From Accumulibacter sp. (GTDB lineage Bacteria > Pseudomonadota > Gammaproteobacteria > Burkholderiales > Rhodocyclaceae), in assembly GCF_029255285.1 (NCBI RefSeq), contig NZ_JAPUVI010000093.1, forward strand, positions 62,001 to 126,000: a stretch of 64,000 nt of DNA, given 5' to 3'. Within the stretch, counting starts at the first letter, position 1. The number at the start of each line of letters is the position of its first letter. Below are positions 7,877-43,824 of this stretch, one piece after another. Position numbers and translations under genes: made by a program. The notes beneath the pieces are model-generated. The model worked only from the letters and a program-made list of their open reading frames with translations. It was not told the DNA's origin and ran no database searches.

Positions 7877-7934
7877 CTAGGCTCCGGGAAAGATCGTAAG
7901 GAAATCGTATCAGAAATCGGGTATCGACAAGCGA

Positions 7935-9545: not shown

Positions 9546-9608
9546 GAAGAGAAGCGCCGCCGCGAGGGGCGCTCGCGCGGTCCTCGCTCAGCAGGGGGCG
9601 CGGTTCGT

Positions 9609-10360: not shown

Positions 10361-10834
10361 TCACTTCTTGTAGATGCCGACGCCGAGAATACCCTCGTAG
10401 CCGGGGACACGGGCCACATAGCTCGATTTTGGAGCGAACTTCTTGGTCTGCGGGTCGGTGTAACTATAGTCGACCCAACCAGTTCCCTTCGCCTTGCCCA
10501 ATTCGATCATCTCTTTGATAAAGAACTTGCCGTCCGGATCCTTCAGGTCCATCAGGTTCTTGCCGATCAGAGCCTTGTTCGCTCCCTGGGCAACTACGGT
10601 GCCGTCGAATTTGACGGCGAAGATGTACAAGTCCTTGTTGTGCCACTTGCCTTCCTTCTCGGAGAAATCGGCGAACGCCTTGTCCGGACCCACCGCCTTG
10701 ATGTGCGCCAAGCCGTTCTCGGCCATCGCCTTGGCTTCGTCGGCCGTACCGCGCTCCTGCGCGAAGGCGAGCGAAACCGAGGCGAGCATGAACAAAGACA
10801 AAGCCAAGTGGCGGAAGAAGTGCGCGAGTTTCAT
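10361..10834 (-). CDS. Secreted single Cache-domain protein
   Basis: A 157-residue protein with a signal peptide (LSLFMLASVSLAFA) and one Cache_2-type sensor domain. Diagnostic stretches are FAVKFDGTVVAQGANKALIGKN, then GTGWVDYSY and VPGYEGILGVGIY near the end. Cache domains normally form the ligand-binding part of chemoreceptors or histidine kinases, but here the domain is free, with no second transmembrane helix. It is 89 bp downstream of a chemoreceptor gene on the same strand, so it could act as a periplasmic binding partner. That link is inference. Confidence 0.85.
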   Translation of the reverse strand: MKLAHFFRHLALSLFMLASVSLAFAQERGTADEAKAMAENGLAHIKAVGPDKAFADFSEKEGKWHNKDLYIFAVKFDGTVVAQGANKALIGKNLMDLKDPDGKFFIKEMIELGKAKGTGWVDYSYTDPQTKKFAPKSSYVARVPGYEGILGVGIYKK

Positions 10835-10923
10835 GTTGTCTCCTTTTTAACGTGGATGAGTGCTGCGGGTGAAGTGCTCGGTTTAGGAAGTGTGCCTGGT
10901 CACTCTGCTGTGCCCTCCGTGGG

Positions 10924-12555: not shown

Positions 12556-12943
12556 GGCAGTCTCCTCCGATCTTTTCGGATCGTTCCACACCCGCGCGTC
12601 GACACCCGGGACGACGGCGACTGAAATTGTTAGCGAAACTCCCGCCGCGGTTTCGCGCTGCCTCGTCGGGATCAGGGCGGCGGAAAACGAAGTCGCCGCG
12701 CAGCCGCCACCATCGGGCGACGCCGAATCATTCTACGGCACACGATGCTCGCCGAGAACATCATCATGAGATGATGGTACCGAACGCGGACTGATCGTGC
12801 AACGGGGGAGGAATAGAGGAAGGATTCGGAATGGCTCTGTTGGCCGGCGCTCGATGCTGCTAGACTAGCCACTGGCTCAAGGCGCGTACGGAGAGTCGGC
12901 AGGTGCCGGCGTTCGGTACCGTCGGACAAAAAGGAGAGATGAC
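12556..12943 (+). other. Intergenic region between chemoreceptor and LysM genes
   Basis: I see no gene in these ~390 bases. They should hold the divergent promoters for the chemoreceptor and the LysM gene. A perfect 7-bp inverted repeat (CATCATC / GATGATG, 4-base loop) lies at 12759-12776, and an AAGGAG ribosome binding site precedes the LysM start. Confidence 0.5.
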
Positions 12944-13459
12944 ATGGGCTTGTTGGATTTTGTCAAGGAAGCAGGCGAAAAGCTTTTTCGTGCCGGAGAA
13001 ACCGATGCCGCGTCGCAAGCGGTGGCCAGCACGCCCGATGATGACGCGGCCAAGGCACATCTGGAGGAGATGAACCGTACCGCCGGCGAAGCCATCGAGG
13101 CCTACGTCGCTACCCAGGGTCTGCCGGTAACCGGGTTGACGGTGACTTTCGACGGTGCGACCGCAACGGCGACCGTATTCGGTGTCGCCGGCGACCAGGC
13201 GAGCAAGGAGAAGATCCTGCTGTGCTGCGGCAACGTGGCTGGTGTCTGCCAGGTCAAGGACATGCTGTCGGTTGATCAGAGTGCGCCGGAAGCCACTTTC
13301 TACACCGTCGTTCCCGGTGACAATCTGTCGAAGATCGCCAAGCGGCACTACGATAATCCGAACAAGTACATGCTGATCTTCGAAGCCAATCAGCCGATGC
13401 TCAGCCATCCGGACAAGATCTATCCCGGCCAGGTGCTGCGGATTCCTGCCGACGAATGA
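12944..13459 (+). CDS. BON and LysM domain protein (Kbp/YgaU-like)
   Basis: A 171-residue protein with a short amphipathic N-terminus (MGLLDFVKEAGEKLF), a BON domain at ~60-115 (VTFDGATATATVFGVA) and a C-terminal LysM domain at ~120-170 (YTVVPGDNLSKIAKRHYDNP, ending YPGQVLRIP). The architecture matches E. coli Kbp (YgaU), a cytoplasmic potassium-binding protein, with about 20 extra residues. There is no signal peptide. A clear AAGGAG site precedes the ATG. The neighbouring GlsB-type gene is also of a stress-related family, so a general stress role is plausible. Confidence 0.88.
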   Translation: MGLLDFVKEAGEKLFRAGETDAASQAVASTPDDDAAKAHLEEMNRTAGEAIEAYVATQGLPVTGLTVTFDGATATATVFGVAGDQASKEKILLCCGNVAGVCQVKDMLSVDQSAPEATFYTVVPGDNLSKIAKRHYDNPNKYMLIFEANQPMLSHPDKIYPGQVLRIPADE

Positions 13460-13553
13460 GGCACGCGCCGGTCGACCGCGGCTTGGCGACCGTGCGACGG
13501 AAATTCGGTAGTGGCGCGTTCCGAGGCCACCCGGCATTCTTGAGGAGCTGACG

Positions 13554-13805
13554 ATGGGTATCGTCTGGACAATCGTTCTGGGTTTCGTGGTTGGCGTCAT
13601 CGCCAAATTGATTCATCCCGGCAGGGAGAACATGGGTTTCATCGTCACCGTGCTGCTGGGCATCGGCGGCTCTTTCCTGGCCGGGATGGTCGGTCAGTTG
13701 CTTGGCTGGTACCGGGCGGGCGAGGGGGCGGGATTCATTGCTTCGGTAATCATGGCGATCGTTTTGCTGGTCATTTACGGCAAGCTGCGCGGCAGTTCAA
13801 ACTAG
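13554..13805 (+). CDS. GlsB/YeaQ/YmgE-type small membrane protein
   Basis: An 83-residue, almost wholly hydrophobic protein with three likely transmembrane helices and the family's Gly-rich faces (WTIVLGFVVGVIAKLIHPG, then LLGIGGSFLAGMVGQLLGWY). Members are called transglycosylase-associated proteins and are often stress induced; their activity is unproven. A GAGGAG-like site precedes the ATG. It is 94 bp downstream of the LysM gene in the same orientation. Confidence 0.9.
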   Translation: MGIVWTIVLGFVVGVIAKLIHPGRENMGFIVTVLLGIGGSFLAGMVGQLLGWYRAGEGAGFIASVIMAIVLLVIYGKLRGSSN

Positions 13806-13844
13806 CTGGATCGGTCGCTGGCCGGTGGGCGCCGCCATGCAGGG

Positions 13845-14906
13845 CTAATCACCGGCCGGCCGACGTGGCGCCGCCAGGCGGTCGATCATGGCGCGCACGG
13901 CCTTGATCTGCTGGCCATCACGGGTGTGGTATTCGCTGCCCGAGTAGCCCCACCAGTCCCAACAGGCAAGCGGGTTGTTCACCCACTTCCAGGAACCGAG
14001 CGCCAGACCGTGGCGTGGAGTGGTCTGCGGGTACAGGACGATTAGCCGGTTGTTGTCTGCCCAAGCGTTATAGCCGGCGCCGTCGACGAAACGGCGTCCG
14101 ATGTCGGTCGCGCTTTGGCGGCAGCCGTGGAAGACCACGTGGATGCGACAGGCGGAGACGCGACAGGCGGATGGAATGTAGGCGTAGCCTTCGTCGGCCA
14201 GACCGGCGTCGACGGCTCGGCCGTCCACGAAAGGGCGCTGGTCGAAGCTCAGAATCTTCCCGCCCGCCGTCGATGGCCGTAGTGGGCCAAGGAGATGAGT
14301 GAGCATTTCGCCGGCTGCGTCGAGGTCGCCACAACGGTTGATGAACGGGGGATGCGCGCTAGAGCAGGGGTTGGGCTGCGGATCGGCAACCGATATCATC
14401 GCGTGTCCCGCGTCGGGCAGCTTGACGAAGCGAATTGCCGTCGGACTGAGCCACTGGCCATAGAAATCCGCCAGACGGTCCATCACCGATGTTTCGACCT
14501 TGTCGTCGTTGCCCCCGGAAAACAGCCACGCCCGGTGACGGCGCAGGTTGTCGAGGGAATCGATTCGACCTGTTCGCGCCAGTTCCTCGGCGCGCGCTCG
14601 CAGGTCGGCGACGGATGGTAACTCTCCCCAGAACGAAGGCGACATGCAACTGGTCAGCGCGCGCCAGCTCGACCCTTGAGCGCAGTAGTACGGCCCACCG
14701 GCGATGACGCCGGCGCCACGCACCAGTTTCGAGTGCGCCACCTCGAACTGTACCGCCATGTAGGCACCCGACGAGACGCCGGAGACGGTCAGATCATCGA
14801 GGCTGGCCGCGAGGGCCGGCAAAGGTGGCGCTGCGCAGACCGTCTGGCAGGCGAGGCTGAGCGCGAGAAGAGTGGCCGGCGGGCGGCGCAGGCGGGATAC
14901 GGTCAT
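13845..14906 (-). CDS. Secreted short-chain PHA depolymerase (type 2 catalytic domain)
   Basis: A 353-residue esterase with a signal peptide (LLALSLACQTVCAAPP). The lipase box GVSSGAYMA, near residue 45, follows the start of the mature domain as in extracellular type 2 catalytic-domain poly(3-hydroxybutyrate) depolymerases. The FHGCRQSATDIGRRFVDGAGY block and a C-terminal WWGYSGSEYHTRDG segment also fit. No substrate-binding or linker domain follows the catalytic domain. Such enzymes cut PHA outside the cytoplasm. It is convergent with the GlsB gene and divergent from the aminotransferase. Confidence 0.82.
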   Translation of the reverse strand: MTVSRLRRPPATLLALSLACQTVCAAPPLPALAASLDDLTVSGVSSGAYMAVQFEVAHSKLVRGAGVIAGGPYYCAQGSSWRALTSCMSPSFWGELPSVADLRARAEELARTGRIDSLDNLRRHRAWLFSGGNDDKVETSVMDRLADFYGQWLSPTAIRFVKLPDAGHAMISVADPQPNPCSSAHPPFINRCGDLDAAGEMLTHLLGPLRPSTAGGKILSFDQRPFVDGRAVDAGLADEGYAYIPSACRVSACRIHVVFHGCRQSATDIGRRFVDGAGYNAWADNNRLIVLYPQTTPRHGLALGSWKWVNNPLACWDWWGYSGSEYHTRDGQQIKAVRAMIDRLAAPRRPAGD

Positions 14907-15077
14907 GGCGCTTCGGAAAAGGCGGCGAAAAGCGGCAGTTTACGGCGAATACGGGTCGCCAGGGCAAGCCCCGACGCTCCGGGCGGATTCCCTGATCGCC
15001 GCGGCCTTGGTGAGCCGGGCCTTGTCTGCGCTGTCGGTCGCCCCTAAACTGGTCGCGTTATTATTTTCCTGCCGCGC

Positions 15078-16250
15078 TTGGCGCGGATCATCGTGTATAA
15101 GTCAAGCGTCGCTGTCGATTCCAAATTTCCCCGCGTGGGGACCACGATTTTCACCGTCATGTCGAAGCTTGCGGCGGACTGCGGAGCGATCAATCTGTCG
15201 CAAGGATTTCCCGACTTTCAAGCGGACTCCTCGTTGTTCGACGCGACTTGGCGTGCCATGCGCGAGGGGCACAACCAATACCCACCGATGGCCGGCGTTC
15301 CCGAATTGCGGGAAGCGATCGCCGGCAAGGTGGCGGCGCTTTACCACGCGCGCTACGATGTGGAGCGGGAAATTACCGTTACGGCCGGAGCGACGCAGGC
15401 CATCTTCACGGCGATCGCGGCTTTTGTACGCGCCGGCGACGAAGTGATCGTCTTCGCGCCAGTTTACGACAGCTACGTGCCGGCTATCGAAAGCGCGGGA
15501 GGCACGGCCGTGTACGCCAGCCTGAACTTCCCCGACTACCGGCCGGACTGGCAGCAGGTCGGCTTGCTGCTCAACAAGCGCACGCGAATGATCATCATCA
15601 ATTCGCCGCATAACCCGACCGGCAGCCTGCTAAGCGCCGACGATCTGGCCGAGTTGGCTGGGCTGACGCGCGATACGGACATCGTGGTTCTGTCGGACGA
15701 AGTGTACGAGCATATAGTTTTCGACGGCGCGCGACATCACAGCGTCGCGAGCCATCCTGAACTCGCCGCACGCAGCCTGATCGTGTCCTCCTTCGGCAAG
15801 ACCTATCACATCACTGGCTGGAAGGTCGGTTACGTGCTGGCCGCCGGCGAGTTGATGGCCGAGTTCCGCAAAGTTCACCAGTTCAACGTGTTTACGGTCA
15901 ATACGCCCTGCCAGTTGGGAATTGCCGACTACATGCGCGATCCCGGGCGCCATCTTGGGCTGGCGGAATTCTATGCTGGGAAACGGGAATTCTTTCGCCG
16001 CCAGTTGCTGGGTTCGCGTTTCGAGCTGTTGCCCTGTCATGGCACGTATTTTCAGCTGGCACGCTACGATTCCCTCTCCGACCTGTCCGACCGCGAGTTT
16101 GCCTGCTGGCTGACTCGTCACGTGGGCGTGGCGGTGATCCCTGTGTCGGCTTTCTACCCCGACGGTCGTGACGACCATGTCGTTCGCTTCTGCTTTGCCA
16201 AACAGGAAGCGACGCTGGCTGCGGCGGGGGAAAAACTACGCCGCGCTTGA
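15078..16250 (+). CDS. PLP-dependent aminotransferase, methionine aminotransferase-like
   Basis: A fold-type I class I/II aminotransferase of about 385-390 residues. The N-terminus (FPRVGTTIFTVMSKLAADCG, then INLSQGFPDF) closely follows the YbdL/methionine aminotransferase group. The PLP lysine lies in SSFGKTYHITGWKVGY, with the conserved NSPHNPTGS and LSDEVYEH motifs upstream. The start is unclear: TTG at 15078 or GTG at 15093 (five residues shorter), neither with a strong ribosome binding site and with no ATG near. Substrate preference is by family only. Confidence 0.88.
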   Translation: MARIIVYKSSVAVDSKFPRVGTTIFTVMSKLAADCGAINLSQGFPDFQADSSLFDATWRAMREGHNQYPPMAGVPELREAIAGKVAALYHARYDVEREITVTAGATQAIFTAIAAFVRAGDEVIVFAPVYDSYVPAIESAGGTAVYASLNFPDYRPDWQQVGLLLNKRTRMIIINSPHNPTGSLLSADDLAELAGLTRDTDIVVLSDEVYEHIVFDGARHHSVASHPELAARSLIVSSFGKTYHITGWKVGYVLAAGELMAEFRKVHQFNVFTVNTPCQLGIADYMRDPGRHLGLAEFYAGKREFFRRQLLGSRFELLPCHGTYFQLARYDSLSDLSDREFACWLTRHVGVAVIPVSAFYPDGRDDHVVRFCFAKQEATLAAAGEKLRRA

Positions 16251-16255
16251 CGGGC

Positions 16256-16285
16256 TTCACAGCGTTGTGGCCTTGCTCCTATAAT
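16256..16285 (+). promoter_or_regulatory. Probable sigma70 promoter of mscL
   Basis: TTCACA at 16256-16261 and a perfect TATAAT at 16280-16285 are separated by 18 bases, upstream of mscL and starting just after the aminotransferase stop. Confidence 0.55.
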
Positions 16286-16349
16286 CGCTGGCGCTTCAAG
16301 GAGCCGGCCAAGCGTCCGGTAGAGTCCAATGGAAAGTAAAGGATACGGC

Positions 16350-16784
16350 ATGAGCATGGTGCAGGAGTTCAAAGAGTTTGCCATGAAGGGCAATGTCATG
16401 GATCTCGCGGTCGGCGTGATCATTGGCGGCGCTTTCGGCAAGATTGTCGATTCGGTAGTGGGTGATCTGATCATGCCCTTCGTCGCCTGGATAATGGGCG
16501 GCAAGCTGGATTTTTCGGGAATGTTTCTTGTTCTGGGGACCATTCCCGAAGGTACGGCGAGAACAGTGGATGCCCTGAAGAAGGCGCAGGTGCCGATTTT
16601 TGCCTACGGCAGTTTCCTCACCATTCTGGTGAACTTCATCATCCTGGCCTTCATCATTTTCGTCATGGTCAAGCAGGTCAATCGCCTCAAGAAGAGTGAA
16701 CCCCCGGCCCCACCGGCGTCGCCGCCGGAGCCGGCGGAAGAAGTCTTGTTGCTGCGCGAGATTCGCGACAGCCTGAAAAAGTAG
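16350..16784 (+). CDS. mscL: Large-conductance mechanosensitive channel MscL
   Basis: 144 residues from the ATG at 16350, which has AAAGGA eight bases upstream; the ATG at 16329 is an alternative. MscL opens under membrane tension to relieve hypo-osmotic shock. Conserved features are the amphipathic start ([20 protein letters not shown]), the pore helix [20 protein letters not shown], the second helix near [20 protein letters not shown] and a Pro-rich linker to the C-terminal bundle ([12 protein letters not shown]). Length is normal. Confidence 0.96.
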
Positions 16785-16859
16785 CCGGCGCTCGTTCCCG
16801 GGAATCAGGTCCGGAGTGGCGCCGCGTTGTGTCGGCAACTTCGCTGCTTGGGCCTTCCG

Positions 16860-19646
16860 TCAGTGACCGGCGAGTCGTTTCTCGGCCACGTCGGACGGCC
16901 CGACGGCCAGCGCAGCGAGCTTTGCGTTGTCGGCGGCGATGACCAGCGTCAGTTGCTCGGGGTCGATGTACTTGCGAAAAGCGGCGTTGACCTGCTCTAC
17001 GGAAAGCGCCACTACCTTGGCCTCGAAATCCTTGGAGAACTGCCAGTCGCGGCCCAGATCGAGAAAAGACGACCAGCGTGCGGCCAGTGTGCTGTCCTGC
17101 GAGCGGCTCACGGCACGCGACTCGATGATTCCCTTCTTCGCTTCGGCGACTTCCTGTTCGGTGAAGCCGTCCCGGCGCGCCCGTCGAAGTTCTTCGTAGA
17201 TCGCCTGCTCGGCGCGGCCGAGGTTCTGTGGCGCGACCATGGCCGTCAGCGACCAGGTCGATAGCCGCTCCCGGCTGCCAAGCGACAGGTTCGACGTGAC
17301 GCTGTAGCTAAGACCCTCCCGTTGACGTAGTCGGTCGATGAGCCGGCTTGATAGCCCGCCACTGCCGCCAAAGATGTTGTTCGCGACGTAAAGCGCAGGC
17401 GCATCCGCATCGTCGTCGCGTAGCAAGAGGTCGATCCTGGCGCGAAGAAAGGCGTTTTCTTTGTCTGGCGTGTTGATTTCGATCCGACTCGGCACAACCG
17501 CGCGGAACTGGCGATCAACGCGGCCATAGGGCGCTTTCGACTGATGGCCCGGAAACAGCCGCCCAAGTTCGTCCGCGATCGCTTTTTCGTCGAAGTCACC
17601 GACGATGGCGATCTCGCCCCGCGCTGTGCCGATCAGCTCACGGTGGTAGCGAATCACATCGTCCAGCGTCGTCTGTCGGACTTGCTCGATACGTTCGGCC
17701 AAAGGCGTGTAGTAGCGGGGATCGCCAGCCGGATAGGTGTTGAAATGCGCCCGCATGGCGTCGCTCGAGCGCTCCTCCGGGTTGTCGAGTTGCGATTGCA
17801 GGGCGGTCAGATACTCACGCTTGAGTTCCTCGAACTCGGCGGCCGGAAAGCTCGCGTCCTGAATGAGTTGCGCCACCAAGGCAAGCGCTGCGGCGAGATG
17901 GTCGCGGTTCGTTTCGAAGTGCGTCAGGCTGCCACGCACCTTCAGGCGAATCAGCTCGTCGGCAATCTGCTGGCGGGTCAATCGACCGGTGCCGCGGGCC
18001 AGCATGGCGATCGCCAGCGGACCGGTGACGTTGCGTTTGGCCAGCGATTTCTCATCGCCCCAGCGAAAGCTCATCGCGACGTTTACGGTCTGGCCGCGGT
18101 TTTTTTTGGCCAGCAAGGCGATTTTCAGATTCCCGAAAGTCCTCAGTTGGGTGCGCGCGCTGATGTTTTCGTGTGAGGGATCGAAAGCCTCGCCGATGTC
18201 TCCCCTTTCCCGTGGCCGGAAATCGGCCAGCAGTTGGGCGGCGCTGGGAGCTTGCGGGACGACGGCGCGTTGCGGTGAATCCTCCGGGATGAAGGTGCCG
18301 AGAACACGGTTGTCACGCACGAAGTACTTGCTGGCCGCGGCGTCGACTTGCGCCGGCGTGATCTGGTCGAGCCGATCGCGAGCGTAGAAGAAAAGCCGCC
18401 AGTCGCCCAGCGCGATGTACTCGGAAAGCAAGACGGCGAACGCCTCGGGGTCGGCCAGCGCACGCTCGTGCGCGGTACGTGACTGTTCGACGGCGCGGGC
18501 GAGTTCGGAGGCCGTTGCTCCGTCGTGCGCCAGGCTTCCTTCGACGACCTCGATCATCCGGTTGCGGACGCGTTCGACAGATTCGCCCTTGTTGACCGTG
18601 GCGCCGAACACCACGAAACCCGGTTCGCGACTATCGACCGGGTAGGCGAAGACCTGTGCCGCCAGTCCGGGCTGGACCAGTTCCCTGTACAGGCGGCCGT
18701 TTGGCGTGTCGCCAAGAATATCGCTGGCCATGCTTATGGCGTCCGAATCGCCGTGTAGGCTCGATGGGGTACGGTAGGCCAGCGTGACGAGCGGCACCTC
18801 ACCCTTGCGCCGGACGAAAAACTGACGCTCGCCGTCGGCCGTTGGTTCGACTGTCCAGTGTTCAGGCAGTTTACGGGCTGGCCTGGGCAGTTTGCCGAAG
18901 GTCGCTGCGATGCGCTCGATCGTCTTCCGCTCGTCGAACTTCCCGGCCACGGCCAGCACCGCGTTGTCTGGCTGATAGTACCTGCGGTAGAAGGCTTGCA
19001 GGTTCTCGATCCTGACATTTTCGATATCGCTGCGTGCGCCGATGGTTGTGTTGCCATAGTTGTGCCAGTCATAAAGCATGGCCTGCATGCGCTTGAGCAT
19101 GACGCTGGCCGGATCGTTCTCGCCCATCTCGAATTCATTGCGCACGACGCTCATCTCGGTGTCGAGGTCTTTCCTGGCGATGAAGGAATTGACCATGGCG
19201 TCGGCGTTCCACGCCAGCGCCCAGGCCATGTTGTCTTCGCTGGCGGCAAAGGTCAGGTAGTAGTTGGTTCTATCGAGCCAGGTCGTGCCATTGATCTGAA
19301 AGCCCCGTGCCTTGAACTCACGCGCCGGATCCGGAAAGTTCTTCGAGCCTTTGAAGATCAGATGCTCGAGCAGGTGAGCCATGCCGGTCTCCCCATAGTT
19401 CTCGTGCCGCGAACCGACGAGGTAAGTGACGTTGACTGTGGCGGTGGCTTTTGCGGCATCGGGGAAAAGGATGAAGCGCAAGCCATTGGCGAGCTGGTAT
19501 TCGCTAATCCCCTCGACGGTGTTGAGTTTCCTGACGCCGGCCGGAAGTGGCGCTGTCGCTTGTGTTCCGGCCTGTGTCCAAGCAGGCAACAGGCTCAGAA
19601 ATAGCCATGATAGGAGAGAGGTTGTAGCTTTCATCCATCGGTTCAT
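16860..19646 (-). CDS. M16 family zinc peptidase, two-module, secreted
   Basis: 928 residues from the ATG at 19646, where a signal peptide begins (LLSWLFLSLLPAWTQAG); the longer frame adds 55 non-homologous residues. The first half carries the inverted zinc motif HLLEH near residue 92 in a pitrilysin-type context (GMAHLLEHLIFKGS). The second half is a related module without HxxEH, as in insulysin/PqqL-like enzymes where the C-terminal half is structural. It probably degrades peptides in the periplasm. It is convergent with mscL. Confidence 0.9.
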   Translation of the reverse strand: MNRWMKATTSLLSWLFLSLLPAWTQAGTQATAPLPAGVRKLNTVEGISEYQLANGLRFILFPDAAKATATVNVTYLVGSRHENYGETGMAHLLEHLIFKGSKNFPDPAREFKARGFQINGTTWLDRTNYYLTFAASEDNMAWALAWNADAMVNSFIARKDLDTEMSVVRNEFEMGENDPASVMLKRMQAMLYDWHNYGNTTIGARSDIENVRIENLQAFYRRYYQPDNAVLAVAGKFDERKTIERIAATFGKLPRPARKLPEHWTVEPTADGERQFFVRRKGEVPLVTLAYRTPSSLHGDSDAISMASDILGDTPNGRLYRELVQPGLAAQVFAYPVDSREPGFVVFGATVNKGESVERVRNRMIEVVEGSLAHDGATASELARAVEQSRTAHERALADPEAFAVLLSEYIALGDWRLFFYARDRLDQITPAQVDAAASKYFVRDNRVLGTFIPEDSPQRAVVPQAPSAAQLLADFRPRERGDIGEAFDPSHENISARTQLRTFGNLKIALLAKKNRGQTVNVAMSFRWGDEKSLAKRNVTGPLAIAMLARGTGRLTRQQIADELIRLKVRGSLTHFETNRDHLAAALALVAQLIQDASFPAAEFEELKREYLTALQSQLDNPEERSSDAMRAHFNTYPAGDPRYYTPLAERIEQVRQTTLDDVIRYHRELIGTARGEIAIVGDFDEKAIADELGRLFPGHQSKAPYGRVDRQFRAVVPSRIEINTPDKENAFLRARIDLLLRDDDADAPALYVANNIFGGSGGLSSRLIDRLRQREGLSYSVTSNLSLGSRERLSTWSLTAMVAPQNLGRAEQAIYEELRRARRDGFTEQEVAEAKKGIIESRAVSRSQDSTLAARWSSFLDLGRDWQFSKDFEAKVVALSVEQVNAAFRKYIDPEQLTLVIAADNAKLAALAVGPSDVAEKRLAGH

Positions 19647-35291: not shown

Positions 35292-35714
35292 TCACTTGTG
35301 GCGGCCGAACTTTTCGACGAGTTGGCCGAGCTTCTGCGCGTGCTGGCGCGCCAGGGTCTCTGCTTCGCGCTTTGCCTGGCGTTGCTCGGCCTGCTTCTGC
35401 AAACGCTCCTTGACCAGTTTAGCGGCATGAAGCCGATGAGTTGCGAGAACCTCGCCGGCCGGATTGCCGTCGAGGTCGACGCGTACGGTGGCACGTTCGG
35501 TTGTCTTCAGGTAGCGCAGGGAGTGCGTGTGGATCCCCAGTGCAGTACGCAGTTCACTGCGGTTGAGAGCGGGCAGCCGCGCCAGGAGTTGCTTGTCGAT
35601 GCCGATGGCGAGCGGCAGGCAGTCCCGGAATACCGGGAACTTGTCCTGCAGTTCCTTCAAGAGTTGACGTGCGTTGTGGCCGGGTACGGCGCCAGGAGGG
35701 ACGGGGGTGTTCAT
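35292..35714 (-). CDS. ProQ/FinO-family RNA chaperone
   Basis: A 140-residue protein whose first ~95 residues form a ProQ/FinO domain: LLKELQDKFPVFRDCLPLAI, GIDKQLLARLP and TALGIHTHSLRYLKTT. A charged, helical C-terminal tail follows (KERLQKQAEQRQAKREAETL). Such proteins bind structured small RNAs and mRNA 3' ends. It lies between the acyl-CoA reductase-like gene (8 bp upstream) and the 186-residue protein, perhaps in one transcript. Confidence 0.88.
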   Translation of the reverse strand: MNTPVPPGAVPGHNARQLLKELQDKFPVFRDCLPLAIGIDKQLLARLPALNRSELRTALGIHTHSLRYLKTTERATVRVDLDGNPAGEVLATHRLHAAKLVKERLQKQAEQRQAKREAETLARQHAQKLGQLVEKFGRHK

Positions 35715-35722: not shown

Positions 35723-37708
35723 CTAGAAATGGATGCCGCGCATGATTTGCGAGAAAGCGATCTGGTCGGCCGTCTGCGCTGCCGGTTCCTGCTTCTTTTG
35801 TGCCGCCGCGCTCGAATCCGGGAACATCCGAAAGCTCGTATTCATCATGATCTGAGCAGCTTTCGGCGTCAGCGAGTGGAGCAGGGCGCCGAATATTCCC
35901 AGCCGGGTGGCGATTCGCACCGGCTTGTGGATGATTGCCTCGACGACCATGTCGGCGGCTTCATCTGGCGACAGCGTCGGAACCTGGTCATACAACTTAG
36001 TCGGCGCAATCATCGGCGTTTTGACCAGCGGCATGTTGATGGTTGTGAACTCGATCCCGCGGTCGGCAAACTCGGACGCGGCACAACGAGCCCAGGCGTC
36101 CATCGCCGCTTTCGAGGCAACGTAGGCCGAGAAGCGCGGGGCATTGGTAAGGACGCCGATCGACGAAATATTGATGACGTGTCCCTTGCGTTTGGCGATC
36201 ATTCCCGGCAGGAAGCCCATCGTCAGGCGCAATGCGCCAAAGTAGTTGACTTCCATGGTACGTTCGAAGTCGTGGAAGCGATCGAAGGAAGTCTCGATAC
36301 CGCGGCGAATCGACCGGCCCGCGTTGTTGACTAGAATGTCGACGCCACCATGTTCCTCGGTCATGCGCTCGACGAAACGCGCGCATTGCTCCGGATCGGC
36401 AACGTCTACCGCATGCGTGATCAGGCGCAGACCATCGGCTTCGAACTCGCGTCGGGTTTCTTCGAGTGCTTGCGTGTCACGGGCAATGGTGACCGCAATC
36501 GCACCCGCTTCGGCCATCTTGCGGACAGTCGCCTTGCCGATTCCGGAAGAGCCGCCGGTGACGAGAACAACCTTACCTTCGACCTGGCCACGCAACGTCT
36601 GATCAATGAACAGGTCCGGGTCGAGGTGGCGTTCCCAGTAGTCCCACAGGCGCCAGGCGTAACTGTCAAGCGGCGGGACAGAGATCCCGGTACCCTTGAG
36701 GGCACGCTGCGTTTCCCGGCAATCGAAACGGGTTGGGTAATTGATGAAATCAAGAATGTCGTCGGGTAGGCCGAGATCCTTCATCACCGCGTTGCGGATA
36801 CGACGAACAGGCGTCAGGGCAAACATGGCTTTGCGCATGGAGCGCGGGATAAAACCCAGCAAGGCGGCATTGACGCGCATCGCCATTTCCGGGGCGTGTG
36901 CGGCGCGCGCGAAAGTATTGAGCAAGTCACCGACTCGCATGGGCGTCGGATCGGTCAAATGGAAGCAGTTGCCGTCTTCGTTCTCCAGGTGTGCGATGTG
37001 GTCCATGGCGGCGACGATGAAGTCGACCGGAACGACGTTGATGCGGCCGCCTTCGATACCGATGGTCGGCATCCACGACGGAAACATCCGGCGCATTTTC
37101 TGGATCAGCTTGAAGAAGTAATAGGGCCCGTCGATCTTGTCCATTTCGCCCGTGCGCGAGTCTCCGACGACGATCGCCGGTCGGAAAATCCGCCACGGGA
37201 TCTTACATTCCTTACGGACGATTCCTTCAGAGTCGTGCTTGGTACGGAAGTAGGGGTTTTCGAGGTTCTCCGCCTCATCGAACATATCTTCACGAAACAA
37301 ACCTTCGAAAAGACCCGCTGCCGCGATCGAGCTGACCAGATGGAAATGCCCGGCACCCAGTTCCTCGGCCAGGCGGACCGTGTTACGCGTGCCGTCCACG
37401 TTGGCGCGCTGTTGGTCCTCAGCACTCGCCTTGAGGTCATAGATCGCGGCCAAGTGGAAGAAATGGTCGATCTTGCCCTTGAGCTTGTCCCTGTCGGCCG
37501 TCGAGACGCCGAGTTCCGGTTGCGTCAGGTCGCCGACGACCGGAACGACGCGCGTTTCGTCGGCGCCCCAGTATTCGTATAGCTGCCGGAGTCGCGGTAG
37601 CTCGACGGCACGAGTCAAAAAGTGCACGACGGCGTCGGGGCGGCTCAACAGTTTGGCGACGAGCCGTTTGCCGATGAAGCCGGTGGCGCCGGTCACGAAG
37701 TAATTCAT
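35723..37708 (-). CDS. Two-domain SDR reductase, probable alcohol-forming fatty acyl-CoA reductase
   Basis: A 661-residue fusion of two Rossmann reductases. The N-terminal extended-SDR half begins YFVTGATGFIGKRLVAKLL and has FHLAAIYDL and NPYFRTKHDSE (YxxxK). The C-terminal classical SDR half has VVLVTGGSSGIGKATV near residue 377, LVNNAGRSIRR and the catalytic YVASKAAMD. From memory, length and sequence closely match the Marinobacter fatty acyl-CoA reductase (Maqu_2507), which reduces acyl-CoA to fatty alcohol with NADPH. A WS/DGAT 4 kb away supports a wax-ester role. Another SDR substrate is possible. It is divergent from the phasin gene. Confidence 0.8.
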   Translation of the reverse strand: MNYFVTGATGFIGKRLVAKLLSRPDAVVHFLTRAVELPRLRQLYEYWGADETRVVPVVGDLTQPELGVSTADRDKLKGKIDHFFHLAAIYDLKASAEDQQRANVDGTRNTVRLAEELGAGHFHLVSSIAAAGLFEGLFREDMFDEAENLENPYFRTKHDSEGIVRKECKIPWRIFRPAIVVGDSRTGEMDKIDGPYYFFKLIQKMRRMFPSWMPTIGIEGGRINVVPVDFIVAAMDHIAHLENEDGNCFHLTDPTPMRVGDLLNTFARAAHAPEMAMRVNAALLGFIPRSMRKAMFALTPVRRIRNAVMKDLGLPDDILDFINYPTRFDCRETQRALKGTGISVPPLDSYAWRLWDYWERHLDPDLFIDQTLRGQVEGKVVLVTGGSSGIGKATVRKMAEAGAIAVTIARDTQALEETRREFEADGLRLITHAVDVADPEQCARFVERMTEEHGGVDILVNNAGRSIRRGIETSFDRFHDFERTMEVNYFGALRLTMGFLPGMIAKRKGHVINISSIGVLTNAPRFSAYVASKAAMDAWARCAASEFADRGIEFTTINMPLVKTPMIAPTKLYDQVPTLSPDEAADMVVEAIIHKPVRIATRLGIFGALLHSLTPKAAQIMMNTSFRMFPDSSAAAQKKQEPAAQTADQIAFSQIMRGIHF

Positions 37709-37756
37709 CGCTGTCTCCTTGAGTTCATGGTCATCTCCGCGTTGGCATGTTTTTGG

Positions 37757-37828
37757 TAGACTGGTGCCGTCTAGAGGCCACTTTCCAGGCCTTTAGTGTG
37801 CGTACTCTAGATATTGTCACTAGACTGG
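37757..37828. promoter_or_regulatory. Repeated motifs in the reductase/phasin divergent promoter region
   Basis: The 180-bp gap carries TAGACTGG twice (37757-37764 and 37821-37828), TCTAGA at 37770-37775 and an inverted pair TCTAG/CTAGA at 37806-37824. Repeats placed this way between divergent genes could be operator sites for a shared regulator. I cannot assign the regulator. Confidence 0.35.
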
Positions 37829-37888
37829 CTTCCTAGGGCAAGTGAAAAACTTGTTGACCTCTCGACGATGATCTTAAAGGAGATAAAA

Positions 37889-38446
37889 ATGGGCAAGAAA
37901 CTCAAAGAATTGGCTGGTGGGTTAACGGAAAACCAATTGGCATCGACAGTCAAGGAATCGGCGCAGCAGATTTGGCTGGCCGGGTTGGGAGCTTTTGCCA
38001 AAGCGCAGGAAGAGGGCGGCAAAGTGTTCGACGCACTGGTCAGGGAAGGCGAGAGCATTCAGGCGAAGACGCGCCAAATTACCGACGAGAAAATTGCCCA
38101 GGTGGCCGGCAAAGCCGCAGGCACGTGGGATCGTCTCGAGCAGGTGTTCGAGGATCGCGTGGCTCGTGCGTTGGGTAGCCTTGGCGTTCCGAGCAGACAG
38201 GATATCGACAGCTTGTCCAAGCGCGTCGTCGAGCTGAGTGCTGCCGTGCAAGCTCTGACTGAGGGGAAGGCTGTGGCCAAGGCGGCCGCCAAGCCGGTGG
38301 CAGAAGATGAGCCGACGTCGGCCGAGCCGGCAGCGGCCAAATCGGCAGCCCGCCGGCCGGCTACCCGCCGGCCGGCCGCCGCCAAGTCGGCTCCTCCGGT
38401 AACGCCGGCCGACGTGCTCAACACCCTTCCGCAAAGTAACGAGTGA
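37889..38446 (+). CDS. Phasin (PHA/lipid granule-associated protein)
   Basis: 185 residues from the ATG at 37889, which has AAAGGAG upstream; the longer frame starts in the promoter. The amphipathic helical phasin domain (~20-125) includes QIWLAGLGAFAKAQEEGGKV and FDALVREGESIQAKTR. A C-terminal Ala/Lys/Arg/Pro tail (AAAKSAARRPATRRP) resembles the basic tail of PhaF-type phasins, which can bind DNA. It should coat PHA or neutral-lipid granules. It is divergent from the acyl-CoA reductase gene. Confidence 0.9.
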   Translation: MGKKLKELAGGLTENQLASTVKESAQQIWLAGLGAFAKAQEEGGKVFDALVREGESIQAKTRQITDEKIAQVAGKAAGTWDRLEQVFEDRVARALGSLGVPSRQDIDSLSKRVVELSAAVQALTEGKAVAKAAAKPVAEDEPTSAEPAAAKSAARRPATRRPAAAKSAPPVTPADVLNTLPQSNE

Positions 38447-38862
38447 TCGATTCGCTCGTGGGGGCTGGGTCCAGTCACGCGGCGCGAGGTCCAGGGTCGG
38501 TTGGCCGCAAGCTCCAGCCTCCCCCTGCTGCGTGACGCAGGGCGCCGAGAGCGGGTTGACTGCAGCGCGAGGCGAGGGCGCCGATGTGCGTCGAAGGCCC
38601 AAGCGGTTGCGCGGCGTTGGGGCGGTCAATGTGATGGTTTGTCTCCCGTCGGGCACATTCGTTTGACTTGCCGGGTTCCTCTTTGAGCGGAGAACTGGTG
38701 CCGTAGGTTTCCTATGGCGCGCCAGGGATCCTTTCTGCGACGTTTGGGAGCGACGATGTCGCGCGAGCGGCCGGCGTCATCTTCCTATCCTAACGTGAAG
38801 GCGCCGAAAGGCAGCCTGTAGCGCCGCCCGGACGGCGCGCTTCCTGGCCGAGGCTTTGCACT
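38447..38862 (+). other. Intergenic region between phasin and patatin genes
   Basis: About 415 bases with no supported gene. A GCGCCG/CGGCGC hairpin lies at 38821-38838, 25 bp before the patatin start, where it could affect translation. ACGAG/CTCGT arms flank the sequence just after the phasin stop. No convincing promoter could be fixed. Confidence 0.4.
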
Positions 38863-40077
38863 ATGGCAGATGCATTGAGATCTTCGAAGGTCGGACTGGC
38901 TCTTGCCGGCGGTGGCCCGGTGGGCGGTATTTACGAAGTGGGCGCCATGGCCGCCTTGGCCGAGGCGCTCGACGGCGTCGATTTCGGCGACTTCGACATC
39001 TATGTAGGGGTCAGTTCCGGAGCCTTCATTTCGGCTGCGGTGGCCAATGGGCTGGGGCCTGCGACACTGGCACGAATGCTCGTCGAGAACGACTCTGACC
39101 AGGTCTTCGATCCGGAGATGTTGCTGCGCCCGGCTTTCGGCGAGTATTTCCGACGCGCCGTGTCGGTACCGCTGCTCTTCTGGTCCTCCCTGCGGCAGTA
39201 TTTATCCGATCCTTGGCACCTTCGTCTGGTCGAGGCCTTTCAGGCGCTCAGCCACGCCATTCCGGCTGGCCTGTTCGATAGCGCGGGCATCGATCAGCTG
39301 CTTCGGAAGCTGTTTTCGACGGGGGGGCGGAGCAACGATTTTCGCCAGCTGAAGCATCGGCTGTTCATCGTGGCGACCGATCTCGACACCGGCGAGTCGG
39401 TGGCTTTCGGTTCCTCAGGGCATGATGACGTCCCGATTTCGGTTGCCGTGCAGGCCAGCGCCGCGTTACCTGGCCTGTTTCCACCGGTCAAGATCGGCGA
39501 TCGTTATTTTGTCGACGGTGCCTTGATCAAGACGCTGCACGCTTCCGTGGCGCTGCACGAAGGGGCCGACCTGGTGATCTGCCTCAATCCGCTGGTGCCC
39601 TTCGACTCCCGATTGGCCGCCAAACGTGCGGCGCAGGAGAAGACGAGACCCGAGCCGGCCTATCTGGTCGACGGCGGCCTGCCGGTGGTTCTGTCGCAAA
39701 CGTTTCGTGCCATCATCCACTCGCGGATGCGTACCGGAATGGATCGCTACCGACTCGAGTTCGAGGGCAAGGACGTGATTCTGTTCGAACCGACGCGCGA
39801 CGACGCGGACATGTTCTTCACGAACGTCTTTAGCTACCGCGGCCGCAGCCGGCTTTGCGAGCACGCCTATCAACGCACGCGCAGCGACCTGTATCGGCGT
39901 CGCCATGAGTTGCGGCCGATTCTCGAGCGCCATGGCATCCATCTCAACCTGGGCGTTTTGAAGGATCATAGCCGTTCGCTGTTATCACGCCGGCGTCGCC
40001 CGGATCTGGCGGCCAGCGCTTCGGCGCTGGATTCCTCGTTGCGCGACCTGGAGGCGTGGTTGCAGACGCGGACTTGA
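38863..40077 (+). CDS. Patatin-like phospholipase/lipase
   Basis: A 404-residue protein. The N-terminal patatin domain has the oxyanion-hole motif GGGPVGGIYEVGA (about residues 17-29), the nucleophile Ser51 in GVSSGAF, and the Asp of the dyad in VDGA near residue 217. The C-terminal ~120 residues are Arg-rich and outside the patatin core. No signal peptide is seen, so it should act in the cytoplasm on acyl-lipids. Its place beside a phasin and a WS/DGAT suggests mobilising or remodelling storage lipid; that is inference. Confidence 0.88.
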   Translation: MADALRSSKVGLALAGGGPVGGIYEVGAMAALAEALDGVDFGDFDIYVGVSSGAFISAAVANGLGPATLARMLVENDSDQVFDPEMLLRPAFGEYFRRAVSVPLLFWSSLRQYLSDPWHLRLVEAFQALSHAIPAGLFDSAGIDQLLRKLFSTGGRSNDFRQLKHRLFIVATDLDTGESVAFGSSGHDDVPISVAVQASAALPGLFPPVKIGDRYFVDGALIKTLHASVALHEGADLVICLNPLVPFDSRLAAKRAAQEKTRPEPAYLVDGGLPVVLSQTFRAIIHSRMRTGMDRYRLEFEGKDVILFEPTRDDADMFFTNVFSYRGRSRLCEHAYQRTRSDLYRRRHELRPILERHGIHLNLGVLKDHSRSLLSRRRRPDLAASASALDSSLRDLEAWLQTRT

Positions 40078-40170
40078 TCCAGCAGGTCGCGGCGCGAATT
40101 CTGCGGCCGGCATTTCCTGGCCGGATCGGCAGTGATATGCTCGCCATTCACGGCGGATGAGGGGCGGCGA

Positions 40171-40818
40171 ATGGAGAGCAAACCCAAGCGGCGAACGCGC
40201 GAACGCATCATCGAGACGAGCCTGCGCCTGTTCAATGATTTCGGCGAGCCGAACGTGACGACGACGGTCATCGCCGACGAGATGAATATCAGTGCCGGTA
40301 ATCTGTACTACCACTTCCACAACAAGGACGAGATCATCGAGACGATCTTCGCGTCGTTCGAGCGGGAGATGGAGGGAACGCTTGCCGTTCCGGCGCGCCG
40401 GCTTACCGACATCGAAGACATCTGGCTTTTTCTGCACCTGTTGTTCGAGCAGATCTGGAAGTATCGCTTTTTTTACCGCGATCTGAACGACTTGCTGACG
40501 CGCAATCGCTTGTTGGAAATCCATTTCAAGCAGATCCTGACACACAAGGTGCAGACGGCGACGAAGCTGTGCGACGGACTGGTGTTGGCCGGGGCAATGC
40601 GCGCCACCGGCGAGCAGGTGCGTGCGCTGGCGACGAACATGGCGGTGATTGCGACTTATTGGTTGTCCTTCGAGTACGCACGTGACCCGCGAGGCAAGCT
40701 CGAAAGCGATCGGATCGGGCGCGGTGTGTACCAGGTGATGGCGATGTTGTCGCCGTTTCTCCTTGGCGAAGCGCGAAGTCTGCTCGACAAGCTGTCACGC
40801 GAATACGTCGGATCCTGA
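40171..40818 (+). CDS. TetR family transcriptional regulator
   Basis: 215 residues from the ATG at 40171 with GAGGGG upstream; the longer frame adds 13 residues. The N-terminal TetR helix-turn-helix is clear (RERIIETSLRLFNDFGEPNV, then MNISAGNLYYHFHNKDEI). The C-terminal domain is helical with aromatic residues (FEQIWKYRFFYRDLNDLL), suiting a hydrophobic ligand. Its position between patatin and the WS/DGAT suggests it governs the storage-lipid genes, perhaps in response to acyl-CoA. Confidence 0.92.
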   Translation: MESKPKRRTRERIIETSLRLFNDFGEPNVTTTVIADEMNISAGNLYYHFHNKDEIIETIFASFEREMEGTLAVPARRLTDIEDIWLFLHLLFEQIWKYRFFYRDLNDLLTRNRLLEIHFKQILTHKVQTATKLCDGLVLAGAMRATGEQVRALATNMAVIATYWLSFEYARDPRGKLESDRIGRGVYQVMAMLSPFLLGEARSLLDKLSREYVGS

Positions 40819-40858
40819 CGTCAGCGCGGCAACATTTCATTCATCTGGAGGACGATCA

Positions 40859-41632
40859 ATGGCCTGGATACCCTTTCCCTACGCCGACACGGCTTACGGT
40901 TTCCCCGGGGCGGCTCTCGAACAGCATTGGGGGCGCCTGCATCGCGGCGACTGCGAACCCTTCCCGACCGATCCCAAGGTCCAGGATGCTTGGCGCAGCT
41001 ACCACGCGGGCGAATTCGGTAAAGCTGTGGAAAGCGGTTTGACGTGTGGAATTGCCGGCTACAACGTGGCTAACAAGGCCGCTGCGATCTATGCCACCTA
41101 CCTGGAGCGCGACGACGAGCGCAAGCGCAGTTTGCTGCTGGAAGTCGCTCGGCGTTGCGAGGAACAACAGGAAAAGAGGCCAGGCGACGCCAACGCCTGG
41201 TATCTTCACGCTTTCGCGCTGGGTCGCTACAGCCAGAGCATCTCGGTCGTCAAGGCGTTGGCGCAAGGGCTTGGCGGAAAGATAAAGCACAGTCTGACGC
41301 AGGCCCTGGAGATCGAACCCCGACACGCTGATGCGCACGTCGCGCTCGGCGCCTATCACGCCGAAGTCATTGACAAGGTCGGGGCGCTGGTCGGCGGGCT
41401 GACTTACGGGGCCAAGAAGAGTACGGGCAACGAGCTGCTCGAAACCGCTCTGAAGCTCAATCCCGACTCGGCGATCACTCGCATCGAATATGCGAACGCT
41501 TTGCTGATGATGTTTGGCAAGGCGCGGATGAAGGACGCCGAACGTCTCTATCGGGAAGCTGCGGCGTTTGTACCGATGGACGCCATGGAGCGTCTCGACG
41601 TCGAAGCAGCGAAAGAGGAACTGGCGGACTGA
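40859..41632 (+). CDS. TPR-like protein
   Basis: 257 residues from the ATG at 40859 (CTGGAGG upstream), 40 bp after the TetR stop and probably co-transcribed. Helical TPR-type repeats are visible: AWRSYHAGEFGKAVESGL, LTQALEIEPRHADAHVALGA and LLETALKLNPDSAITRIEYA. There is no signal peptide or membrane helix. It may be a scaffold or adaptor at the granule or for the acyltransferase, but nothing in the sequence shows this. Confidence 0.8.
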   Translation: MAWIPFPYADTAYGFPGAALEQHWGRLHRGDCEPFPTDPKVQDAWRSYHAGEFGKAVESGLTCGIAGYNVANKAAAIYATYLERDDERKRSLLLEVARRCEEQQEKRPGDANAWYLHAFALGRYSQSISVVKALAQGLGGKIKHSLTQALEIEPRHADAHVALGAYHAEVIDKVGALVGGLTYGAKKSTGNELLETALKLNPDSAITRIEYANALLMMFGKARMKDAERLYREAAAFVPMDAMERLDVEAAKEELAD

Positions 41633-41682
41633 ACCCTATGGCGTGCCCGGTCCGAGCATGCCATCGCACCGTCCGCGGCTGC

Positions 41683-43167
41683 TCAACGTCGGATCAGGGC
41701 GAGCACGTCTTCTTCGACGGCCTGCGGAAAGCCGAGACGATCCCAGGGTTCGAGCAGGACGAGCCAGAGCAGTTTTTCGAACTCGTCGGCAAATCGGTCG
41801 ACAATGTTTTCCGGGTCGTCGACCATGCTCTTGTCGGTGATCAGTCCGAATTGTACGTAGTTGTTGTAGGAGAGAATGCTGACTCCCATGCCGATATCGC
41901 CTGCCTGGGGTACCCAGACCATTTGTTGTGCGATCCTGCTGCCGGCAAAGAAGCGGGTCTTCTGAAAGCCGGGGACATTGGTCATCACCGCCGTCGTTTT
42001 GTCGGCGAGCTGTTTGAGCACCTTGTCCTGAACGAACTGAGGCGCCATTCCTGCCGCGCCGAGCAGGGAGAAAGTCAACATCGCCTGGTGTGATCCTTTG
42101 AGTTCCGCCATTCTGGCGCGCGTTGCATAGAGCCTGGCGAGTGGATTTGCCACGCCGATAGGCAGGTCGAGGGTGACGAGCCCAAAGCGGTTGCCCAGCT
42201 CCTCGATGTCTCCAGGCCTCCGCAGATTGACGGGCACCATGACGCGGATGGCCACCGAGCCGACACGGTCGCCTTTGGCCGCCAAGTAGCCGCCCAGGGC
42301 ACCGGCGACGGAGGAAAGCAGGGTGTCGTTTACCGAGCAGCCAAGAACCTTGCCGACGGCCTTGATGTCGGGCAGTGAGATCGGCTCTGACCAAGCCACG
42401 CGTTTTGCCGTTCCCGCCTTGCCCTTGAAGCGTGTCGCGCTGTCGCTGGGCAGCAAGGCGAGTTGGCCGATTTCCCGGGCGAGGGCTCCGGCGGCACGAG
42501 CGTAGTTGCGCAGCCTTCCGGGATCTCGACGTAAACCGAGGTATTGGCCCCAAAGATGGCCACCAACGTGTATCGAGGTCAGTGCCAGCTCGCTCAGCGG
42601 TTCAAGGATCAGGCGCCAGACACGGTCGCCGGTATCGTCTTCGTCGTCGTCGGCGCTGGCCGCTGATGCGAAAAGCGAATCCGCCGACCCACCGTCTTCC
42701 GGAGCGTCGGGCTGTTCGTCGGTCAGCGAGTTGATGACGCCAATCAGCGCGATCCCGTCGGCGATGGCGTGGTGGATGCGGACAACGAGTGCCGAGTTTC
42801 CGCTAGCCGTTTCGACGACGTTGAATTCCCAGCGAGGCCGCGCTGCATTGAGTGGTGTGCTGGCCATTTCAGCGACGAACTTTTGCAACTCGTGTTTACC
42901 ACCAGGGGCCGGGAGCAGCGAATGGCGAACGTGTGCGTCGATGTCGAAGTCGGGATCGTCTACCCACCACGCGCCGTCCGAATCCAGCCGCGCGATCTGA
43001 CGGAAGCGTCGGTAACGCAGTAGACGCGAAGCGACGGTGCGCTTGAGACGCTCGGCGTCGATGCGGCCACCGAAAAGCATGACGCCGAGGATCTGCATCA
43101 GGTTCTCCGGCCGGTCCATGCGTAACCAGGCCGTGTCGACGTGGGAAATGATTTCGCGCGAGCGCAT
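41683..43167 (-). CDS. Wax ester synthase/diacylglycerol acyltransferase (WS/DGAT)
   Basis: 494 residues from the ATG at 43167 (GGAG eight bases upstream); ATGs at 43200 and 43221 are alternatives. The enzyme esterifies acyl-CoA to fatty alcohol or diacylglycerol. The catalytic HHAIADG motif is near residue 134, in the N-terminal condensation-like domain opened by SHVDTAWLRMDRPENLMQI. The C-terminal WS/DGAT domain includes NDTLLSSVAGALGGYL and TAVMTNVPG. It faces an acyl-CoA-binding protein gene across an 80-bp promoter region. Substrate preference cannot be judged. Confidence 0.94.
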   Translation of the reverse strand: MRSREIISHVDTAWLRMDRPENLMQILGVMLFGGRIDAERLKRTVASRLLRYRRFRQIARLDSDGAWWVDDPDFDIDAHVRHSLLPAPGGKHELQKFVAEMASTPLNAARPRWEFNVVETASGNSALVVRIHHAIADGIALIGVINSLTDEQPDAPEDGGSADSLFASAASADDDEDDTGDRVWRLILEPLSELALTSIHVGGHLWGQYLGLRRDPGRLRNYARAAGALAREIGQLALLPSDSATRFKGKAGTAKRVAWSEPISLPDIKAVGKVLGCSVNDTLLSSVAGALGGYLAAKGDRVGSVAIRVMVPVNLRRPGDIEELGNRFGLVTLDLPIGVANPLARLYATRARMAELKGSHQAMLTFSLLGAAGMAPQFVQDKVLKQLADKTTAVMTNVPGFQKTRFFAGSRIAQQMVWVPQAGDIGMGVSILSYNNYVQFGLITDKSMVDDPENIVDRFADEFEKLLWLVLLEPWDRLGFPQAVEEDVLALIRR

Positions 43168-43182
43168 CGAGTCTGCTCCGCC

Positions 43183-43219
43183 GGAAAATGGCAAGCCCAT
43201 ATAATAGCAAGCCATTTCC
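43183..43219. promoter_or_regulatory. Inverted repeat around the promoter between WS/DGAT and acyl-CoA-binding protein
   Basis: GGAAAATGGC (43183-43192) and GCCATTTCC (43211-43219) form an inverted repeat with one extra base on one side. Between them are AT-rich sequence and a TATAAT at 43200-43205. The layout suits a repressor covering a divergent promoter. The nearby TetR is the obvious candidate, but this is inferred. Confidence 0.5.
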
Positions 43220-43247
43220 ATCCGATCAGCGTGCGAAGGAGTTGAAC

Positions 43248-43508
43248 ATGAGTGAACTGCAAGCCCGATTCGTAGCCGCCGTTGCCAGCTCGAAGACCCT
43301 GAGTGAACGTCCCGACAACGCCACCTTGCTGAAACTGTATGCGCTTTACAAGCAGGCGAGCGAGGGCGATGTCGAGGGCCGGCGCCCGGGCTTTACCGAC
43401 ATGGTTGGGCGAGCCAAGTTCGACGCTTGGGCGGCGCTCAAGGGCACGGCCTCCGACGAGGCAAAGCAGCAGTATGTTGCCCTGATCGACGATCTGAGAG
43501 CGCGCTGA
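43248..43508 (+). CDS. Acyl-CoA-binding protein
   Basis: 86 residues from the ATG at 43248 with AAGGAG upstream. The four-helix ACBP fold is clear from LLKLYALYKQASEGDVEGRR, then KFDAWAALKGTASDEAKQQY. The family binds long-chain acyl-CoA with high affinity and shuttles it between enzymes. It occurs only patchily in bacteria. Its divergent placement from the WS/DGAT suggests it feeds acyl-CoA to neutral-lipid synthesis. Confidence 0.93.
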   Translation: MSELQARFVAAVASSKTLSERPDNATLLKLYALYKQASEGDVEGRRPGFTDMVGRAKFDAWAALKGTASDEAKQQYVALIDDLRAR

Positions 43509-43545
43509 CGGACGCTAACCGGCGCCTCTCGTCGGCTGCCGTCAG

Positions 43546-43824
43546 TCAGATTGGAAAGTTCTCGTCGAAAAAGCGTTGCGCCTCACGCTCTATACGTGGC
43601 TTGAGTGCGAAGAGCAGGAATCCGAGACGGATGTGCAGGGCGACTTCCTTGGCGTCGAGCGACAGCTCGCCAGAGACGCCGGGCCGCTGAAAGCGCATGA
43701 CATCCCCGTCCCACGCGTAATCCAGGTCGAACTCTTCCTTCAGCTCGGAAGCCATGTGTTCAGCTGAGGCGCGGGCTTCGGCGCGGCTCTTGCCATGTGG
43801 TCGACGAATGTCGATGTCGCTCAT
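43546..43824 (-). CDS. Polyhydroxyalkanoic acid system family protein
   Basis: A 92-residue protein with the PHA_gran_rgn pattern: an N-terminal IDIRRPHGKSRAEARASAEH, then DLDYAWDGDVMRFQRPGVSG and LGFLLFALKPRIEREAQRFF. Members are found with PHA or granule genes; their biochemical role is undefined. It is convergent with the acyl-CoA-binding protein gene and closes the storage-lipid region. Confidence 0.88.
   Translation of the reverse strand: MSDIDIRRPHGKSRAEARASAEHMASELKEEFDLDYAWDGDVMRFQRPGVSGELSLDAKEVALHIRLGFLLFALKPRIEREAQRFFDENFPI

Follow-up and report, generated by a model that had tools for sequence, protein, structure and literature searches.

A conserved gene block in Accumulibacter that probably serves wax ester or triacylglycerol droplets with coat proteins of their own

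We analyzed a 64,000-nucleotide stretch of DNA (the window) from an Accumulibacter sp. genome (RefSeq assembly GCF_029255285.1; 4.19 Mb, 113 contigs), corresponding to positions 62,001 to 126,000 of the forward strand of contig NZ_JAPUVI010000093.1. Between window positions 35723 and 43824 lie eight genes that an earlier note, made from the letters alone, had read as a locus for storage of neutral lipid, either wax ester or triacylglycerol (TAG). A check against the list of open reading frames (ORFs) placed all eight where the note had put them, and profile searches upheld the families it had named. The genes occupy both strands and are not a single operon.

The first gene, on the reverse strand, encodes a 661-residue, two-domain short-chain dehydrogenase/reductase of the alcohol-forming fatty acyl-CoA reductase (FAR) type (35723..37708; NF005539, PF07993 and PF00106). 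A 180-base intergenic region (37709..37888) separates it from a divergent phasin gene on the forward strand (37889..38446), whose product matches PF05597 (133.8 bits; cut-off, 28.8) and TIGR01837 (98.3 bits; cut-off, 94.7). The phasin ORF is listed from a TTG at 37814, but translation probably starts at the ATG at 37889, which lies behind an AAGGAG motif. Three more forward-strand genes follow: a patatin-like lipase (38863..40077; PF01734), a TetR-family regulator (40132..40818; PF13972 and PF00440) and a TPR-like protein of unexplained role (40859..41632). The TPR-like protein matches PF13431 weakly (30.8 bits), and an NCBIfam profile search for it gave no match. Its ORF is listed from 40763, and its alignment with 21 relatives (57-88% identical) begins at the ATG at 40859. 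The last three genes encode a wax ester synthase/diacylglycerol acyltransferase (WS/DGAT; 41683..43221, reverse strand; TIGR02946, PF03007 and PF06974), an acyl-CoA-binding protein (ACBP; 43248..43508, forward strand; PF00887) and a phasin-like "polyhydroxyalkanoate (PHA) system" protein (43546..43824, reverse strand), which matches PF09650 (90.1 bits; cut-off, 26.6) and TIGR02610 (76.2 bits; cut-off, 40.25). The ACBP ORF, listed from 43188, overlaps that of WS/DGAT because the longest ORF was taken for each; the probable starts are the ATG at 43248 for ACBP and an ATG near 43167 for WS/DGAT.

Both enzymes of the block retain their catalytic motifs. For FAR, the match to NF005539/PRK07201 spans residues 1-661 and scores 1025.8 bits against a cut-off of 549. 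We aligned homologs with E-values of 1e-60 or lower and at least 85% coverage, after removing rows with stops and identical rows. The Tyr-x-x-x-Lys active-site residues of both FAR domains (Y153/K157 and Y529/K533) and the nucleotide-binding glycines of both (G7/G10/G13 and G385/G389/G391) were invariant in 40 of 40 reductases, which are 60-94% identical to the window FAR where measured. Matches to FAR in the Protein Data Bank numbered 28 at 1e-20, each over one domain only. The WS/DGAT contains both domains, PF03007 and PF06974, scores 373.7 bits with TIGR02946 (cut-off, 309.95) and matches Protein Data Bank entries 7nxg and 6chj; its HHxxxDG, ND and TNVPG motifs were invariant in all 54 aligned sequences (32-82% identity). 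WS/DGAT enzymes accept either an alcohol or a diacylglycerol as acceptor.

To find the block in relatives, we scanned the contigs of genomes with the window WS/DGAT alone. This yielded at least 79 loci, and our counts refer to the 79 listed. A core of six genes (WS/DGAT, TPR, TetR, patatin, phasin and FAR) kept a single order and strand pattern over 6.9-7.4 kb at 20 of these loci. Eight are Accumulibacter-like (L028-L034 and L039; Candidatus Accumulibacter contigs plus one Pseudomonadota metagenome-assembled genome [MAG]), five come from other Pseudomonadota (L035, L036, L037, L049 and L064) and seven from Aeromonas (L040-L045 and L051). Since the six-gene order recurs so often among loci fetched by WS/DGAT alone, the block goes beyond chance. 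The best WS/DGAT relatives among the matches listed were those of the eight Accumulibacter-like loci (70-82% identity), where FAR is 81-94% identical. With the core kept together in relatives, the joint neutral-lipid reading therefore passes the test of synteny. The gene set that the earlier note had pieced together, leading from acyl-CoA to wax ester (or TAG) with an ACBP, a lipase, a regulator and coat-type proteins, is likewise borne out by this conservation.

By tblastn, PF09650 was found at 13 and ACBP at 10 of the 20 full-core loci, the seven Aeromonas loci, L029, L035 and L036 giving no ACBP; a later profile search showed PF09650 and WS/DGAT to be about 0.3 kb apart in all seven cassette-bearing Aeromonas genomes. 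Partial blocks lay on short contigs at L038, L046 and L061, while L047, L048 and L057 carried WS/DGAT, ACBP and PF09650 with no FAR within the fetched flanks. The remaining loci had single further matches at most. Looser forms of the block were found in other genomes of the same order, where the reductase was detected at 1e-60 in 20 of 150 genomes, the own genome included; the four other members of the own family in that search gave no such match.

The surroundings of the core are shared among the eight Accumulibacter-like loci: orn, M48 and rsgA were present at all eight, rho at seven (not L034) and proQ at seven (not L039, which ends there). Within the fetched flanks, the seven housekeeping neighbors that we scored stood beside the core only at the Accumulibacter-like loci. 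At L034 (7.8-10.0 kb), about 2 kb of extra sequence lies between ACBP and WS/DGAT, and rho was not found at its usual distance. In the window, a ProQ/FinO-family gene (35292-35714) with the same orientation lies directly downstream of FAR, 8 bases away, as it does in the Accumulibacter-like loci that reach that far.

We next considered whether the phasin and PF09650 genes are tied to PHA synthase. The set comprised 43 genomes: 23 reached via the listed loci with a whole or cut block, and 20 with the reductase from the 150-genome search. PF05597 and PF03007 were detected in all 43, PF09650 in 41 and the PHA synthase (PhaC) family PF07167 in 38. Neighbors were counted within 10 kb, a measure from which contig breaks may conceal some, using 78 WS/DGAT and 87 PhaC rows. 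Merging a second gene piece (G110:C38:8393) reduced 63 phasin rows to 62 places; 41 of 46 PF09650 rows were retained, the five omitted being from genomes outside the 43. A WS/DGAT lay near the PF05597 phasin at 47 of 62 places and near PF09650 at 33 of 41. A PF07167 PHA synthase lay near none of the 62 phasin places, class III enzymes having been sought in part of the 43 genomes, and near none of the 41 PF09650 places. This absence is not built in by the choice of genomes. In the nine Accumulibacter-like genomes, all 18 phasin places were close to a WS/DGAT. Five of the 15 phasin places away from WS/DGAT adjoin FAR (G048, G120, G037, G003 and G110).

The Aeromonas genomes separate the two kinds of gene further. 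Neither PF07167 nor TIGR01836 matched a PHA synthase in five of the seven cassette-bearing Aeromonas, genomes of unstated completeness (A. sobria L041, A. allosaccharophila L042, A. lacus L045, A. fluvialis L051 and uncultured Aeromonas L043). In these five, WS/DGAT has the phasin gene at a distance of about 4-4.5 kb and PF09650 at about 0.3 kb. The other two, L040 and L044, have a PHA synthase. In a tree of 56 phasin rows, the window phasin grouped with Accumulibacter and, at an unstarred 92/85, joined a branch whose seven phasins come from Aeromonas (five) and from MAGs of other Pseudomonadota (two). The tree, which was built from chosen loci only, with rows below 85 residues and identical rows dropped, and which concerns a short domain with long branches, lends no more than mild support.

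A sample of 232 genomes of the class gave a broader view, uncorrected for kinship (G232/G349 and G297/G396 are same-genus pairs). Over cut-off, PF05597 was found in 12 genomes, WS/DGAT in 14 and PF07167 in 55. Of the 12 genomes with phasin, 9 also had WS/DGAT (Fisher p = 9e-11; 8 of 11, p = 1e-9, with the own genome excluded) and 5 had PF07167 (p = 0.13; 4 of 11, p = 0.24, with the same exclusion). As PF07167 misses class III enzymes, the latter figure understates the link to PhaC: with TIGR01836 added, 8 of 12 phasin genomes had some PhaC evidence, in G358 below cut-off only. WS/DGAT without a PhaC over cut-off was seen in 4 of 12, two of which (G297 and G396) have sub-cut-off TIGR01836 matches of about 20 bits. 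Phasin and WS/DGAT lay close together in G232 and G293; in G048, G178, G297, G320, G349 and G396 they were distant or on separate contigs. None of the 12 lacks both WS/DGAT and every sign of PhaC, so PF05597 looks like a family that coats either store; in the cassette, it goes with WS/DGAT.

Within the own genome, a search limited to PF05597 phasins gave only two matches, on contigs C93 and C94. On C94, a second WS/DGAT is divergent to the second, diverged phasin (L109, G000:C94:6000-24000, 7757-9918), and the other eight Accumulibacter-like genomes have similar WS/DGAT/phasin pairs spaced by no more than 10 kb. The PhaC matches of the own genome are on C73 and C43, and C43 carries PhaE, a class III PhaC and a thiolase. 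At L198 (G000:C43:114000-133500, 10494-18298), a PhaC of class I type lies within 8 kb of a class III pair, PhaE and PhaC.

The gap between FAR and phasin contains a dyad, TCTAG-N9-CTAGA (37806-37824), that is unique in the whole window (0.01 expected) and sits in a conserved element at 37794-37828. A 22-base element recurred with at most six mismatches in the FAR-phasin gap of 17 of 39 sequences examined: nine Accumulibacter-like, including the window, L036, L064 and six Aeromonas. It recurred with 7-8 mismatches in L037 and L049, and most other sequences of the 39 gave no convincing match. When compared with shuffled sequences (60 each), five of six relatives beat all shuffles and L041 tied; significance in Aeromonas was modest. 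The element is a possible operator or promoter, and that the TetR protein binds it is a guess. FAR and phasin genes are also divergent, and accompanied by a TetR gene, at L207 (G358:C30:120000-135000, 4.0-8.0 kb); that genome gave no match to WS/DGAT.

We favor, as the likely reading, a cassette for wax ester (or TAG) droplets with their own coat proteins. The reductase would convert acyl-CoA to fatty alcohol, and WS/DGAT would either combine the alcohol with another acyl-CoA molecule to form wax ester or acylate diacylglycerol to form TAG, the former being the presumed main product. ACBP, where present, would deliver acyl-CoA. The phasin and the PF09650 protein would coat or size neutral-lipid droplets instead of PHA granules, the patatin lipase would mobilize the stored lipid, and the TetR regulator would probably act at the shared FAR/phasin promoter region. 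A bolder proposal has about even chances: PHA would be the wrong namesake for the cassette's phasin and PF09650 protein, which would form a coat dedicated to lipid droplets, and the six genes would make up a portable droplet kit common to Betaproteobacteria and Aeromonas.

Several observations weigh against the droplet cassette. Because the cassette or FAR was the criterion for choosing the 43 genomes, part of the closeness to WS/DGAT follows from the choice itself. As the host and most of the 43 genomes have a PHA synthase, the phasin could serve both stores there. PF07167 alone, which we tried as the test for PHA synthase, proved insufficient: it overlooked the class III enzymes of G182 and G318, which are strongly found by TIGR01836, a model run on 15 genomes only. 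In the class-wide sample, WS/DGAT and PF07167 occurred together in 8 of 14 genomes (p = 0.006), and in 3 of the 12 genomes with phasin, evidence of PhaC came without WS/DGAT. No ACBP turned up next to WS/DGAT at the Aeromonas loci or at L029. TAG-rich Rhodococcus jostii RHA1 is reported to lack any protein with high similarity to known phasins (PMC2667194). Finally, we infer the activities of the cassette enzymes from their sequences.

The earlier note had taken the PHA-type proteins as a sign of shared or mixed granules. On such a view, the host makes mixed wax ester/PHA granules, or its phasin and PF09650 protein belong on PHA granules and are encoded beside wax ester genes by accident. Both families are named after PHA granules and are among the phasin families listed in PMC5658603, the host has PHA synthases of class I and class III types, and in G182 and G318 the phasin adjoins PF09650 in genomes with a class III PhaC and no WS/DGAT match. 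However, no phasin or PF09650 place has a PF07167 PhaC within 10 kb, five Aeromonas keep both genes with no PhaC match, and a third of the phasin genomes in the class-wide sample have WS/DGAT with no PhaC over cut-off. We therefore rejected mixed granules as the leading reading and consider either version unlikely. The note had also called PHA-type genes in a wax ester set unusual, which is doubtful given a similar arrangement in PMC10351704 (Galvan et al., 2023).

A somewhat less improbable alternative to the wax ester cassette is that TAG is the main product and that the reductase meets another need for fatty alcohol or aldehyde. WS/DGAT enzymes can use either acceptor, PMC10351704 links ACBP next to WS/DGAT with TAG accumulation, and L047, L048 and L057 have WS/DGAT, ACBP and PF09650 with no FAR in the fetched flanks. 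Yet FAR belongs to the conserved order at all 20 full-core loci. That the genes are chance neighbors forming no functional unit is consistent with their lying on both strands, but we regard this as highly improbable: order and relative strands are the same in Accumulibacter-like genomes, other Pseudomonadota and Aeromonas, and, within the fetched flanks, the housekeeping neighbors that we scored accompany the block only in the first of these.

Candidatus Accumulibacter has been studied mainly for polyphosphate, glycogen and PHA. If the droplet reading is right, Accumulibacter would have an overlooked store of wax ester or TAG, and carbon models of wastewater phosphorus removal would have to allow for it. 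Two families taken as signs of bioplastic storage would also acquire a second interpretation, that of neutral-lipid droplet proteins. Our search of the open-access literature met Accumulibacter together with wax ester only via a reference title, which is no proof of absence from print; the part of PMC9003127 at hand holds nothing about this locus.

Among known enzymes, Maqu_2507 of Marinobacter is 661 residues long. The mycobacterial FCR1 (Rv3391) has 650 residues, is 40% identical to MAQU_2507 and converts acyl-CoA to fatty alcohol for wax ester (PMC3522743). Like the window FAR, both are two-domain reductases of about 650-660 residues. For the coat, PMC5658603 offers a precedent for a phasin on neutral-lipid bodies in GA14 of Rhodococcus ruber, which was isolated from lipid inclusions; this is a different organism, and the likeness drawn here is one of proposed role. 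The only close gene-cluster paper that we recognized in the literature search is PMC10351704, which describes a WS/DGAT, an ACBP, a Maqu_2507-like reductase and a "PHA system" protein on two Burkholderiales scaffolds, with a phasin on another scaffold. Compared by text, all four genes of that Betaproteobacterial neighborhood lie within 8.1 kb here, and the arrangement is thus largely in print already. The text compared does not mention the patatin, TetR and TPR genes. What the present analysis adds is the conserved six-gene order, the cassettes of Accumulibacter and Aeromonas and the genomic distance between the two "PHA" families and PHA synthase, features that are likewise outside the text compared.

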